Source of the DNA: Shewanella metallivivens | GTDB lineage: Bacteria; Pseudomonadota; Gammaproteobacteria; Enterobacterales; Shewanellaceae | Reading direction: 5' to 3' | Length of the DNA stretch: 64,000 bases | Assembly: GCF_028750675.1 (NCBI RefSeq) | Contig: NZ_JAQQPZ010000013.1 | Location: 639,486 to 703,485 of the forward strand | In this document: positions 38,170-43,276 of the stretch, one piece after another | Position numbering within the stretch: position 1 is the first letter of the stretch | Layout: every line of letters starts with the position of its first letter | Position numbers and translations under genes: made by a program | Notes under the pieces: generated by a model | Seen by the model: only the letters and a program-made list of their open reading frames with translations | Told to the model about the DNA's origin: nothing | The model's database searches: none

Positions 38170-39276
38170 TTAAGGGGTATTTAAGATATGAATTTGCTCA
38201 GACTTTAACGCTATGGTGGTTTGCATTCCGGTTTGTAATGCTAACTTTTCGACTAAGTGAGTTGGGACATCAGCATTAAGCACTGAACCAATACCGATAA
38301 CAGATGCTATAACGCGTGACGATTCCCCCATAACCAATACTGACTCAATCATGACATCCAGTTTATTGATGCTTTTACATAAACGGCCACTGCTGATGGC
38401 ATTAAAACGAATCCCCTGGTTGGGGATAACCCAACGGATCGCTTGCCCCTTTGCGAGAGGCGGGGCACTGTCGCTGATAATGAGTTCTTCGCCGAGCTTA
38501 AACCAAGTCATGTTACGTTCAATGTCTTGCTCGACGACTTCACCATCAAAAATATTACGCAAGCCCATTTGACGAGCCACAGCTTCATCATAAGGGTGTG
38601 ACAGCACTTCAAAAGGTTGACCTTGCTGGAGCATTTTCCCTTGGCTTATTAGCATCATTTTATCAGCGAGTAATAATGCCTCATGAATGTCGTGAGTCAC
38701 CATAACCACTGGAATTGACAGTTGTTGCTTTAATCGTGCGAGCTCAATGTACAAGCGCTCGCGGGTTTCACGGTCAACCGCCGAAAAAGGCTCGTCGAGT
38801 AATAAAATGGCAGGCTCGCGAGCCAATGCTCGTGCTAATGCAACACGTTGACGCTGTCCCCCAGAGAGTTGCGCAGGCAAACGGTTAGGCAAACCATGTA
38901 AATTAACACGTTCAAGCCAGTCTAAAGCACGCTGCTTACGTTCTGATTTTGGCACATGGTCGAGCCCTGCTATCACATTGTCTAAAGCCGACAAGTGCGG
39001 AAATAGACCAAAATGTTGTGGCATATAGCCAATATGACGTTGCTGGGGTGTTAGTGACACTTGCGTTGAAGAGTCAAACCATAAAACGTCACCACATTGA
39101 ATATGGCCTTGCTTAGGAATTGTCAGCCCAGCAATCATTCTTAACAACGTCGTTTTACCACCGCCAGAAGGCCCCACTACCGCTAACACTTCACCGGCTT
39201 TGCAAGTAAAGTTAGCGGCCAATGGAATGGGTAACGTCTGGCCAATATGACAAACGAGATCAGCGCTGTGTGGCAT
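38170..39276 (-). CDS. modC: molybdate ABC transporter ATP-binding protein ModC
   Basis: 368 residues with Walker A GPSGGGKTT (about residues 34-42), signature LSGGQRQRVALARAL, Walker B ILLLDEPFSAVD and the H-loop VTHD. A C-terminal Mop/TOBE region (about 295-365) binds oxyanion and marks molybdate transporters. The start lies inside modB (17-base overlap). It powers molybdate import and ends the moa-mod run. Confidence 0.94.
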   Translation of the reverse strand: MPHSADLVCHIGQTLPIPLAANFTCKAGEVLAVVGPSGGGKTTLLRMIAGLTIPKQGHIQCGDVLWFDSSTQVSLTPQQRHIGYMPQHFGLFPHLSALDNVIAGLDHVPKSERKQRALDWLERVNLHGLPNRLPAQLSGGQRQRVALARALAREPAILLLDEPFSAVDRETRERLYIELARLKQQLSIPVVMVTHDIHEALLLADKMMLISQGKMLQQGQPFEVLSHPYDEAVARQMGLRNIFDGEVVEQDIERNMTWFKLGEELIISDSAPPLAKGQAIRWVIPNQGIRFNAISSGRLCKSINKLDVMIESVLVMGESSRVIASVIGIGSVLNADVPTHLVEKLALQTGMQTTIALKSEQIHILNTP

Positions 39277-39937
39277 TATGGCCTCCTAAACGCCGCGACA
39301 GACTGGTCGTTAATGCCAGAGCACTCACAGCAAATAGTAACAACACCAATGACATCATGCCTGCGGAGTCAAAGTCGAAGGCTTGTACGCTGTCATAAAT
39401 GGCGATTGAAATCGTTTTGGTTTCGCCAGCGATATTGCCACCGAGCATCAATACCACTCCAAATTCACCTAATACATGAGAGAAGCACAGCACTAGTGCA
39501 GTCAATACACCTGGCCATACCATAGGTAACTCGACTTTAAGGAAAATCCGCATACGGCTCATACCACAGCAAGCAGCGGCGTCACGAATATCAATTGGAA
39601 TGGTTTCATAAGCGCGCTGTATGGGCTGCACAGCAAAGGGAATATTGACGATAATGGAAGCAATCACGAGTCCAGAGAAATTAAACACCAGTTGTTGACC
39701 AAATAGCTGCTCAGCAAGGCCACCAATGAAGCTTTGATTGCCTAATCCCACCAACAAGTAATAACCAATCACAGTTGGCGGTAAAACTAAGGGCACTAAA
39801 ATTAATGCTTCTAACCATGATTTACCGTGAAATTGATAATAAGCTAAGCCCCGGCCTAAGAAGATCGCCAACGGAATTAACAACAACACAGTAAAGCTAC
39901 TGAGTTTGACTGACAGCAACAGCGCTTGCCAATCCAT
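39260..39937 (-). CDS. modB: molybdate ABC transporter permease ModB
   Basis: 225 residues with five or six membrane helices and the conserved EAA loop coupling to ModC (ETIPIDIRDAAACCGMSRMRIF). Sequence such as LPLVLPPTVIGYYLL is typical of ModB. The start codon shares a base with the modA stop (TAATG). Confidence 0.95.
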   Translation of the reverse strand: MDWQALLLSVKLSSFTVLLLIPLAIFLGRGLAYYQFHGKSWLEALILVPLVLPPTVIGYYLLVGLGNQSFIGGLAEQLFGQQLVFNFSGLVIASIIVNIPFAVQPIQRAYETIPIDIRDAAACCGMSRMRIFLKVELPMVWPGVLTALVLCFSHVLGEFGVVLMLGGNIAGETKTISIAIYDSVQAFDFDSAGMMSLVLLLFAVSALALTTSLSRRLGGHNATQR

Positions 39938-40785
39938 TAGTCTAGCGTCTCTGTTACTTGCGGTAAGTTAAAGCCAAACTCACTTAATACTTTTTGCGCT
40001 TGTGGGCTTTGCATGTATTGATAAAAACGCATAGCGGTTTCAGAGGCATTTGGCATTAATGCCATACGTTGATTAAGCGGTTCGTATAAATGATCAGGAA
40101 TAACCACATGGTTAGCTAGCTGAGTAAATTGCGGCGCAAGTACCAATGACAAGGGTACGATGCCACCTTGAGTCGAACCACTGATGGTAAATTGGGCGGC
40201 TTGTGATGCGTTTTCCCCCAGGATCAGCTTAGGTTGCACAGCATCCCATAACCCTTTGGATTTTAGCACCTCTCGGGCACGTTCACCGTAGGGAGCATGA
40301 TCGGGATTGGCTATCGCAAAGCGCTTAAGCTTGCCGTCGGTAATAAATTGCCCTAACCCGACTAACTCAGAGTCAAGAATTAACTCAGATTGCTTTGGCG
40401 CAGCAAGCGCTAATCGACCGATAGCATAAATAACCCCAGCATCTTGGGTGTAACCTGCCTTATGCAACTGCTCAATATAAAACTCATCGGCACTGAGCAT
40501 CATTTCAAATGGGGCACCGTGTTGAATTTGAGTAACAAAATTGCCAGATGAGCCATAACTGATACGAACTGCTAACCCGGTTTGTTGTTTGAAATTCATA
40601 GCGATATCATCGAGCGCAAACTTAATGTTTGCCGCGGCAGCTATGGCTGGCACTTCGGCAGCCTGCACCAAATGATTAGGCAAGGTAACCCCAAAAAAAA
40701 CAAGCATTAATGTCGCGATAATCGCACGATATTGTTTATTGAAACGCTCGCCTTGCGTAAAAATAGATAACCGAGAAAAAAACAT
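39937..40785 (-). CDS. modA: periplasmic molybdate-binding protein ModA
   Basis: 282 residues with an unusually long N-terminal region before the signal helix (ATLMLVFFGVTLPNHLVQAAE). The mature part begins IAAAANIKFALDDIA. Conserved oxyanion-site features are AAANIKFA, SYGSSGNF and the C-terminal FYQYMQSPQAQKVLSEFGF. It delivers molybdate to ModB. It begins 50 bases after moaE, with no terminator in between, so transcription from moaA may continue into it. Confidence 0.94.
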   Translation of the reverse strand: MFFSRLSIFTQGERFNKQYRAIIATLMLVFFGVTLPNHLVQAAEVPAIAAAANIKFALDDIAMNFKQQTGLAVRISYGSSGNFVTQIQHGAPFEMMLSADEFYIEQLHKAGYTQDAGVIYAIGRLALAAPKQSELILDSELVGLGQFITDGKLKRFAIANPDHAPYGERAREVLKSKGLWDAVQPKLILGENASQAAQFTISGSTQGGIVPLSLVLAPQFTQLANHVVIPDHLYEPLNQRMALMPNASETAMRFYQYMQSPQAQKVLSEFGFNLPQVTETLD

Positions 40786-40835
40786 TAATCACTGACCTTA
40801 TTGGTTGAGCAAACAACGGCAGAATATTGGTTAGA

Positions 40836-41297
40836 TTATTTTTGCCACATTTTAGCCGCTTGCTCATCACTATCACGGGCTTCGACCCATTTGCTGCCAG
40901 TATCGTTGGCTTCGAGCTTCCAAAATGGTGCTTTGGTCTTTAAAAAATCGATTAAAAACTCACATGCAGCAAAGGCAGCCTTACGATGGGCACTGGTTAC
41001 GCCGATAAACACAATCTGCTCACCTAGCGCCATCGTGCCGACACGGTGAATAATCGTCACCTTGTTTAATGGCCAGCGCTCGCGTGCTTGTTGGCAAATT
41101 TGATCTAATACCGACTCAGTCATACCAGGGTAATGCTCTAGCGTTAAATCAGTCACAGCACTGCCATCATTAAAATCGCGCACTTTACCAATAAAATTAA
41201 CCACCGCACCGTCTTGGTTATCATTGGCCAATAATGCATATTCGTCGGCAACACTAAAATCCTGGGTTTGCACTCGAACAGTAGTCAATGTTGTCAT
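40836..41297 (-). CDS. moaE: molybdopterin synthase catalytic subunit MoaE
   Basis: 153 residues; with MoaD it converts cyclic pyranopterin to molybdopterin. Conserved features are VVNFIGKVRD, LTLEHYPGMTE, HRVGTMALGE, the HRKAAFAACEFLID helix and the catalytic-type lysines in FLKTKAPFWKLE. It starts two bases after moaD ends. Confidence 0.96.
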   Translation of the reverse strand: MTTLTTVRVQTQDFSVADEYALLANDNQDGAVVNFIGKVRDFNDGSAVTDLTLEHYPGMTESVLDQICQQARERWPLNKVTIIHRVGTMALGEQIVFIGVTSAHRKAAFAACEFLIDFLKTKAPFWKLEANDTGSKWVEARDSDEQAAKMWQK

Positions 41298-41299
41298 AC

Positions 41300-41548
41300 T
41301 TAACCTCCTGTTACAGGAGGGAAAAAGGCAACTTCGTCACCAGCCTTTATCTGAGTGTCCCATTGACTTATCGTTTGATTAACTGCAACAAGTAGCTTAT
41401 CTGAAGTGAGCACTTTAGCCCATTTATCATCGGTTGCAGCCAATGCAGCACGTAACTCTTCTGCGGTACGAATATTGGCGCTACTGTGCTCCACTTTCGC
41501 AGTACCGAGTAACTCGCGGACTTGCGCAAAAAATAATACTTGGATCAT
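41300..41548 (-). CDS. moaD: molybdopterin synthase sulfur carrier MoaD
   Basis: 82 residues of ubiquitin-like fold ending in FFPPVTGG. The C-terminal Gly-Gly is adenylated by MoeB and becomes the thiocarboxylate. Size and ending are diagnostic. Confidence 0.95.
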   Translation of the reverse strand: MIQVLFFAQVRELLGTAKVEHSSANIRTAEELRAALAATDDKWAKVLTSDKLLVAVNQTISQWDTQIKAGDEVAFFPPVTGG

Positions 41549-41598
41549 AGTGGTCTCTCAATACATAAATTTGATGACAATAAATTAACTAGCCAATG

Positions 41599-42075
41599 TT
41601 AAGCAGTAAAGTGGCCAGATTTCCCGCCGCGTTTCTCAAGCAATCTCACCTGCGAGATAACCATGTCTTTTTGCACGGCTTTACACATATCATAAATGGT
41701 TAACGCAGCCACAGACGTCGCGGTTAATGCTTCCATTTCAACACCGGTTTTACCTGACAATTTACACAGGCTAGTGATACGCACACGGTTATGCTCAGGC
41801 TGAGCCTCAAGCTCGACTTCCACTTTGGTTAACATTAAAGGATGACATAACGGAATAAGGTCTGAGGTCTTTTTAGCGGCTTGAATACCGGCAATACGGG
41901 CTGTAGCAAACACATCACCTTTATGGTGGCTACCGCTCATTATCATCGATAATGTGTCAGCGGCCATGTCGATATACGCTTCAGCTCTGGCTTCGCGTTC
42001 AGTCACAGCTTTTTCAGTGACATCAACCATATGAGCATTGCCATCGGCATTAATGTGGGTGAAACGATTACTCAT
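41599..42075 (-). CDS. moaC: cyclic pyranopterin monophosphate synthase MoaC
   Basis: 158 residues with the family motifs [13 protein letters not shown] (about residues 65-77), [10 protein letters not shown] and [11 protein letters not shown]. It acts after MoaA to make cyclic pyranopterin monophosphate from the rearranged GTP product. It lies 70 bases after moaA and 50 bases before moaD, same strand. Confidence 0.96.
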
Positions 42076-42145
42076 GTTATGAATACCTTATCAAATAGAA
42101 TTTGTAGGTTAGCGGCACTTATATTTGAGCTAAGCCAGCTGGCGG

Positions 42146-43126
42146 CTAACCACCAATAGAGGCGAGATGCTTAGTCACACCAGTAATGCCTTGATGCAGA
42201 AAGTGAGTTTCTTTCTTTTGCTCTAATTGGCCATGCAAGCGAGTGATTAATTCATCACGTTGCGATGAATCTTGCAGTAAATCTCGTAAATCAACGCCAT
42301 TTTCAGTAAATAAGCATAAGTGCAATTTACCTTTGGCAGAGACTCTTAAACGATTACAACTAGCGCAAAAGTTTTTGGCGTACGGCATAATTAAACCGAT
42401 ACGGCCTTGATAGTCACTGTGACTGAAGTTTTGTGCAGGGCCATCATCGGCACTCGGTAGATCGTATAACCAGCCTTCTTGCTCAAGCTGTTTTTTAATG
42501 TCGATACCGGCTAAATGATGGGCATTGAAATATTCACGACCAAGTCCTGTCTCCATCAGTTCAATGAAGCGCAAATCAATAGGGGTGTGTTTAATCCAAT
42601 GTAAAAAACGCGGTAAATCTTTGTCGTTTAACCCTTTCAATAACACCGCATTAATTTTGACTCGTTCAAATCCCGCCTCAAGTGCGGCATCAATACCACG
42701 CATCACTTGGTCGAATTTATTTTCACCGGTAATTTGGTAAAACATTTTGGGGTCTAAACTGTCTACTGAGACGTTAATACGTCGCAAACCTGCGTCATAC
42801 CATTCTTGTGCATGTTGCTGTAAACGATAACCATTAGTGGTCATGGCTACGGTATTAACATTAGGGTTATCTGCAACGATGCGCACGATATCAGTAAAGT
42901 CTTTGCGAAGGGTCGGCTCGCCACCTGTGATACGAATTTTTTGTGTACCCACAGCAGCAAAACCTGCAACGAGATTTTCAATTTCGTTAAGCGTTAAAAA
43001 ACTAGGTTTGCCATCAGGGCGATAACCATCGGGCAGGCAATAGCTGCATTTGAAATTACAAACGTCAGTGACTGACATCCGTAAATAATGAAATTTTCGT
43101 CCAAAATTGTCTTGTAACTGGGACAT
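42146..43126 (-). CDS. moaA: GTP 3',8-cyclase MoaA
   Basis: 326 residues; a radical SAM enzyme that cyclises GTP in the first step of Moco synthesis. The N-terminal cluster motif CNFKCSYC, the GGEPTLR segment and the C-terminal cluster cysteines CASCNRLR...C are all intact. The open frame continues 28 codons upstream into the riboswitch. The ATG at 43126 is preceded by GGAAAGG at good spacing, starts MSQLQDNFGR, and gives normal length. Confidence 0.96.
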   Translation of the reverse strand: MSQLQDNFGRKFHYLRMSVTDVCNFKCSYCLPDGYRPDGKPSFLTLNEIENLVAGFAAVGTQKIRITGGEPTLRKDFTDIVRIVADNPNVNTVAMTTNGYRLQQHAQEWYDAGLRRINVSVDSLDPKMFYQITGENKFDQVMRGIDAALEAGFERVKINAVLLKGLNDKDLPRFLHWIKHTPIDLRFIELMETGLGREYFNAHHLAGIDIKKQLEQEGWLYDLPSADDGPAQNFSHSDYQGRIGLIMPYAKNFCASCNRLRVSAKGKLHLCLFTENGVDLRDLLQDSSQRDELITRLHGQLEQKKETHFLHQGITGVTKHLASIGG

Positions 43127-43129
43127 GTT

Positions 43130-43240
43130 AACCTTTCCAAGTGTGGGAGGTAAGTGCATTTCTTTACTCACCCCGGTGGCAAAATTACCACGGCAAAATG
43201 CCCATATCATTGACGTAGGGCAAAAAGCTCGGAGAACCGT
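43130..43240 (-). promoter_or_regulatory. Moco riboswitch in the moaA leader
   Basis: The moaA leader matches the molybdenum-cofactor RNA motif as seen before E. coli moaA. In order on the minus strand are a GCCGTGG block (43187-43193), GCCACCGGGGTGAG (43167-43180), AAATGCACTTACCTCCC (43145-43161) and TTGGAAAGGTTAACATG, which holds the ribosome site. GTGAGT and ACTTAC form a hairpin arm. Such RNAs bind Moco and close the ribosome site or stop transcription. Outer borders are approximate. Confidence 0.88.
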
Positions 43241-43248
43241 CAGATCTA

Positions 43249-43276
43249 ATTATAGGCCTATTTGCGGGTTTACAAA
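43249..43276 (-). promoter_or_regulatory. moaA promoter
   Basis: On the minus strand a perfect -10 TATAAT (43249-43254) has TTTGTA 16 bases upstream as a fair -35. The predicted start of transcription, near 43242, coincides with the 5' edge of the riboswitch, which supports both calls. Confidence 0.7.

Follow-up and report, generated by a model that had tools for sequence, protein, structure and literature searches.

A conserved Moco riboswitch ahead of moaACDE-modABC in Shewanella and its possible reach to molybdate import

The moaACDE-modABC locus

We examined a stretch of 64,000 nucleotides (nt) from Shewanella metallivivens (contig NZ_JAQQPZ010000013.1, positions 639,486 to 703,485; hereafter the window), in which a riboswitch for molybdenum cofactor (Moco) stands ahead of seven genes for cofactor synthesis and molybdate uptake: moaA, moaC, moaD, moaE, modA, modB and a modC-like gene (Table 1). 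The first six each exceed the curated NCBIfam cut-off for the name they carry. The seventh is called modC by position, because neither TIGR02142 nor its best hit, PhnT2, reaches its own cut-off. The initial annotation had placed all seven on one strand with gaps of 70 nt or less and two overlaps, and this layout was confirmed: the spacings along moaA/moaC/moaD/moaE/modA are 70, 50, 2 and 50 nt, and the overlaps are 1 nt for modA/modB and 17 nt for modB/modC. The most likely start of moaA is position 43126, within the 3' end of the aptamer; the longest open reading frame (ORF), from 43210, also opens inside the aptamer.

Table 1. Features of the moaACDE-modABC locus and of related loci in other contigs
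Feature	Position	Strand	Details
Leader promoter, predicted -10 box (TATAAT)	43249..43254	-	weak -35-like TTGTAA at 43275-43270, spacer 15
Moco riboswitch aptamer with P3 stem	43114..43246	-	RF01055; overlaps first moaA codons
5' strand of extended P1, GACGGTTCTCC	43231..43241	-	identical in 111/111 aligned Moco-RNA loci; paired in predicted fold
3' strand of extended P1, GGTTAACATGTC	43122..43133	-	carries end of Shine-Dalgarno sequence and moaA ATG
moaA, GTP 3',8-cyclase	42146..43126	-	TIGR02666 352.2 bits, cut-off 284.05
moaC, cyclic pyranopterin monophosphate synthase	41599..42075	-	TIGR00581 231.5 bits, cut-off 141.5
moaD, molybdopterin synthase sulfur carrier	41300..41548	-	NF008347 112.4 bits, cut-off 94
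moaE, molybdopterin synthase catalytic subunit	40836..41297	-	NF007959 220.9 bits, cut-off 175
moaE-modA gap, 50 nt	40786..40835	-	contains Shine-Dalgarno-like AATAAGGT ahead of modA
modA, molybdate-binding protein	39937..40785	-	TIGR01256 175.5 bits, cut-off 62.5; sole modA match in genome
modB, molybdate permease	39260..39937	-	TIGR02141 243 bits, cut-off 182.6
modC-like ABC ATPase	38170..39276	-	TIGR02142 219.9 bits, below cut-off 285.05
Aptamer-less leaders	L043:2261-2440, L044:7290-7418, L045:7607-7734, L046:2260-2389		genomes G018, G057, G066, G089
Decayed Moco RNA, genome G007	L236:6489-6618	-	RF01055 23 bits, cut-off 36; before moaACDE
TupABC-like run tupA, tupB, tupC, mobA	L238:146-3656 (G000:C5 ~930750)		names by likeness; divergent from response regulator

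The aptamer and its expression platform

The Moco RNA suspected in the moaA leader was recovered by cmscan, which matched RF01055 over the full model (1-135) with 83.2 bits against a cut-off of 36 (window E value 1e-18). This RNA (43246-43114) is alone among Rfam families in reaching its gathering score within the window, and no second Moco RNA was found in the genome. Its P3 stem is aligned and paired (GCCGUGG...CCACC) and is paired in the predicted fold as well, and the presence of P3 denotes the Moco rather than the Tuco type (Regulski 2008, PMC2408646). The RNAalifold energy of four aptamers also points to a conserved fold (z -4.26 against column shuffles, none of 300 being as low).

The expression platform lies over the ribosome site of moaA. 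Among 111 loci, the 3' strand of the extended P1 reads GGTGATCATGTC in 82, GGTTAACATGTC in 27 and another sequence in 2. The Shine-Dalgarno sequence GGAAAGG (43138-43132) stands at -12 to the ATG, and the ATG itself (43126-43124) falls inside this strand. When the window's aptamer is folded, GACGGUU and CC are predicted to pair with the 3' strand and to leave the A of the AUG bulged; P1 forms over the ribosome site in the predicted folds of three of the four aptamers, the window's included. Repression of moaA translation by Moco is well supported by the resemblance of this arrangement to the E. coli logic described by Regulski 2008.

Conservation within the genus

The moa-mod run with its Moco riboswitch is real, conserved and common to nearly the whole genus. 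Our set comprised 129 Shewanella genomes, 117 covered by whole-genome search and 12 others at the moaA locus, and a Moco RNA is present in 123 of them (111/117 and 12/12, respectively). The six without one are G007, G018, G057, G066, G089 and G102, the last of which is only 52% complete. At 115 of 115 testable loci (110 fetched loci with a Moco RNA, the window and four loci without the aptamer) the whole seven-gene set is colinear and shares a strand, a count obtained from 117 rows (the window and 116 fetched loci) by removing L047, which has no moa genes, and L150, which meets a contig end. The same holds for 12 of 12 further loci. When the loci with a Moco RNA are counted alone, the seven-gene order is found in 123 of 124, the exception again being L150 at its contig edge. 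A close ModA is encoded in S. saliphila, S. algicola, S. basaltis, S. ulleungensis, S. inventionis and Shewanella sp. KJ10-1 (6/6 loci from Shewanella).

Many relatives carry an extra ORF between moaA and moaC, which we take to be MoaB/Mog-like, named by likeness; the window lacks it. The assembly G068 contains two moa-mod operons that differ from each other, each with a Moco RNA (L049 and L050), and could be mixed. moaA has an in-frame stop in L075 (G009) and lies in two pieces in L058 (G049), reflecting either sequencing error or decay.

Promoter and terminator signals along the run

We scanned the 115 loci for -10 consensus boxes, a search that gives predicted promoters rather than a transcript map. 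Within 80 nt ahead of the aptamer, a perfect TATAAT is present at 107 of the 115 loci, and a box with at least 5 of 6 letters at all of them. The distance from the end of TATAAT to the invariant GACGG of the first aptamer helix is 7, 8 or 9 nt in 73, 34 and 4 of 111 measurable loci. Within 80 nt ahead of modA, no locus has a perfect box and 37 of 115 have 5 of 6 letters, compared with in-gene controls of 35/115 in moaC, 30/115 in moaE and 0/115 in modB. These counts place the leader promoter at the aptamer, with none evident at modA beyond the in-gene background.

A separate modA promoter in the 50-nt gap had been raised as a possible source of all mod transcripts. One alternative would have an internal promoter, located within or ahead of the moaE-modA gap, as the main driver of modABC, answering to a regulator of its own that we do not see. 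A weak -10-like TAAAAT with GTGATA does lie on the operon strand inside the end of moaE (40876-40849), and the gap reaches 235 nt in some relatives (L121, L123). Set against this are the lack of any -10 excess before modA over the in-gene controls at the 115 loci, the absence of a ModE box from the gap, and a median gap of just 31 nt (range -38 to 235, measured to the most upstream start codon). In the window, the gap contains no promoter or terminator signal on the operon strand. We regard this alternative as quite improbable. The statement that no terminator separates moaE from modA agrees with our scan, which flagged none there in the window and one in 1 of 115 loci, but the same scan flagged only 2 of 115 after modC, so that this silence carries little weight.

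ModE and the second modABC

The own genome of the window has no ModE over the cut-off; its best TIGR00637 match, probably a regulator of the LysR type, reaches 30 bits where 98.5 are required. The initial annotation had seen no ModE-like palindrome at the locus, and this was borne out. In the window, even the closest match ahead of moaA departs from the palindrome at 8 of 18 positions, within the shuffled range of 5-9, and 10 of 10 ModE loci tested as a positive control (those fetched from the 25) show the palindrome with 0-3 mismatches of 18. A ModE box at the moa-mod operon was rejected, as none of the 115 regions upstream of moaA has a site with fewer than 5 mismatches of 18, nor does any of the 25 such regions in ModE-bearing genomes. 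Sites with 5 mismatches are found upstream of moaA in 17 of 115 regions versus 6 of 115 shuffled ones; the 17 are related loci, and of the 25 genomes with ModE just 2 are represented among them. In the search for ModE palindromes the moaE-modA gap resembles shuffles.

ModE exceeds the cut-off in 25 of the 117 Shewanella genomes. Each of the 25 genes, read by eye, is divergent from a second, high-scoring modA 300-400 nt away, and a partial ModE of 69.5 bits in G001 is likewise divergent from a second modA. Given this location of the second modA and the palindrome counts, ModE in Shewanella pairs with its own transporter and leaves the moa-mod operon alone.

Loci outside Shewanella

Order-wide, a Moco RNA match was found in 133 of 197 genomes, from which 40 loci outside the genus were hand-picked across families and fetched. 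The RNA and moa genes are followed by modABC in 6 of the 40, namely L170-L173 (one family), L182 and L191, three other families in all. The moa genes run through moaE without modABC in 15, and 19 were left unclassed, with the run cut or interrupted or moaE absent within 8 kb. ModE was searched in 21 of the 40 genomes and exceeded the cut-off in 0 of the 6 with modABC after moaE versus 8 of the 15 without (a chance of 0.03, by hand, for 0/6 given 8/21); G272, with a ModE of 96.1 bits against 98.5, is a ninth near case among the 15. The eight ModE genes, read by eye, are divergent from a modA. That ModE is rarer where modABC follows moaE is a hint only, because four of the six are one family.

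Two further observations concern these loci. Behind the Moco RNA match of L190 (G174), tblastn found no moaA, and that RNA may precede a gene of a different kind. Elsewhere, unrelated genes spanning about 4.5-6 kb often come between the RNA with moaA and moaB (L166, L167, L179, L180, L183, L184, L186, L195, L202), so the Moco switch outside Shewanella may head longer or broken runs.

Losses of the aptamer

The aptamer would be ancestral, judging from its occurrence both in 123 relatives and outside the family. G018, G057, G066 and G089 group together in a four-protein tree (Shimodaira-Hasegawa approximate likelihood-ratio test (SH-aLRT) support 100) as a clade that keeps the upstream ETF-QO-like gene, the -10 box and a leader of similar length. 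No RF01055 match was found in these leaders even at E 1, and they resemble the aptamer only near its end, around CCTCC and GGAA. In G007, the sub-cut-off Moco RNA precedes moaACDE, no modABC occurs within about 4 kb after moaE, and another part of the genome (L047) carries a divergent modABC with 30-36% identity. G007 and the four-species clade look like two separate decays.

We also considered a variant riboswitch in the four leaders (L043-L046). RNAalifold predicts a closing helix over the ribosome site. With the structure derived from the same rows, 93.3% of cells pair versus 53.5-68.3% when it is slid; likewise with a structure from those rows, the covariation score of 0.340 is reached by 0 of 500 shuffles. 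The energy z of -0.62 is matched by 76 of 300 column shuffles as low, and single-strand z-scores are -0.43 to 0.53. The new fold was rejected as unproven, because decay is simpler and the energy is no better than that of shuffles.

A second importer and neighbouring genes

The own genome also encodes a TupABC-like run (Table 1), by likeness a second importer of oxyanions, whose TupB-like permease scores 175.5 bits, below the cut-off of 320. In S. oneidensis, SO4718 is listed as a sigma54 two-component regulator of tungstate (molybdate) transport (PMC2667191). In the window, a 174-residue ORF without an NCBIfam match (38037-37513, minus strand) lies downstream of modC, and a response regulator and a histidine-kinase-like ORF follow it.

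How the switch could reach modABC

We consider it probable that moaACDE-modABC is one transcription unit, and that a Moco OFF switch, through Rho polarity or mRNA decay, feeds back on both synthesis and import. A promoter just before the Moco-sensing riboswitch would read all seven genes as one unit. When free Moco is plentiful, the aptamer would close P1, the Shine-Dalgarno sequence and start codon of moaA would be covered, and moaA would go untranslated. The untranslated leader would then presumably invite early Rho termination or decay of the mRNA, so that moaCDE and modABC would fall as well. The outcome would be end-product feedback on cofactor synthesis and on ModABC molybdate import in a genome without ModE over the cut-off, and the TupABC-like importer, outside the operon, would not be under the Moco RNA. 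In this scheme the P1 geometry comes from sequence and fold at this locus, the ligand response is taken from E. coli, and the Rho step is one that we infer. Control of import needs co-transcription together with Rho polarity or mRNA decay, because the switch acts at the ribosome site of moaA and modA has its own.

For the same reason, a translational block at moaA need not affect modA. The riboswitch could then govern translation of moaA only, or perhaps also of moaC-E, with modABC on the same mRNA and steadily translated from its own site. The translational nature of the expression platform fits this alternative, as does the Shine-Dalgarno-like site of modA; modA is four cistrons beyond moaA, behind a 50-nt gap that speaks against stop-start coupling. 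Yet mod and moa are colinear in 123 of 124 loci, which suggests that joint control has been kept, and translational riboswitches are often coupled to Rho termination. The latter point is illustrated by a study that we take to be by Adams and colleagues. There, E. coli moaA is one of the listed genes in which a known riboswitch is followed by a Rho-dependent 3' end, and a rho mutation raises expression of a moaA leader fusion more than 2-fold (PMC7815308). Should the E. coli behaviour hold in Shewanella, Rho would be a plausible bridge from the moaA block to modABC, and we think confinement of control to the moa genes unlikely.

Several points weigh against joint control of synthesis and import as we propose it. 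The ribosome site of modA has a duplex energy of -4.0 kcal/mol, near the -4.5 kcal/mol of moaA (moaC, -4.0; moaE, -10.9; modC, -10.2 kcal/mol). The P1 of the window contains mismatches, and one of the four aptamers folded (L101) is without P1 in its minimum-energy fold. The four-species clade retains the operon without the aptamer. The terminator scan has low power, with 1 of 115 positives at moaE-modA and 2 of 115 after modC, and the 6-against-15 comparison outside the genus is small and dominated by one family. ModABC may not be the sole importer of molybdate or tungstate. Finally, we found no transcript data or experiment on Shewanella moaACDE-modABC in the open-access literature. The initial annotation had suggested that one RNA could limit import as well as synthesis; the riboswitch, the conserved run, the lack of a ModE box and of a ModE gene over the cut-off, and the lack of a modA promoter signal above the in-gene controls agree with it, but the platform lies at the moaA site and an effect on import would need a further link.

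Beyond the single locus, we tentatively suggest a scheme for Shewanella without ModE, one we hold with real reservation, in which the finished cofactor and not the metal governs ModABC import. One Moco RNA would set synthesis and uptake through Rho polarity, metal sensing by ModE would come only as an added module with a second modABC, and the scheme would have been undone at least two times (in G007 and in G018/G057/G066/G089). Cofactor-only control of molybdate import is plausible in itself. Molybdate uptake would then probably answer to the end product rather than to the metal, in a genus that serves for studies of anaerobic respiration, and natural comparisons are on hand in genomes with versus without ModE and in five species with a decayed aptamer and moa genes kept.

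Comparison with known systems

The Moco RNA of E. coli moaABCDE shares with that of the window the P3-bearing aptamer family, the position before moaA, the ribosome site in P1 and the predicted OFF logic; a translational fusion there rises more than threefold at low Moco, and the ligand is predicted to switch expression off (PMC2408646). The two differ downstream. E. coli has ModE and keeps modABC as a unit of its own, and its moa genes are also subject to ModE and FNR, whereas here modABC directly follows moaE in a genome with no ModE over the cut-off. In some bacteria Moco RNAs have been described ahead of modABC, and they also stand ahead of varying combinations of synthesis and transport genes (PMC2408646). 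Syntrophomonas wolfei has a seven-gene synthesis and transport operon behind three P3-less RNAs, in contrast to the single P3-bearing RNA of Shewanella (PMC2408646). Shewanella is named 0 times in the main text of Regulski 2008.

Across 16 Shewanella genomes, the Moco riboswitch was reported among those controlling pathway and/or uptake genes (Rodionov 2011, PMC3223726), and that Moco regulon is almost surely the same operon, an identity that we infer. MOCO regulons were later followed across 255 genomes, where loss of RNA motifs in some lineages is given as a cause of patchy distribution (Sun 2013, PMC3766115); we found no account of the two Shewanella aptamer decays in the open-access literature. 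The link between a Moco RNA and uptake genes is already a published idea (PMC2408646; for Shewanella, PMC3223726), and our main point is a refinement of that work.

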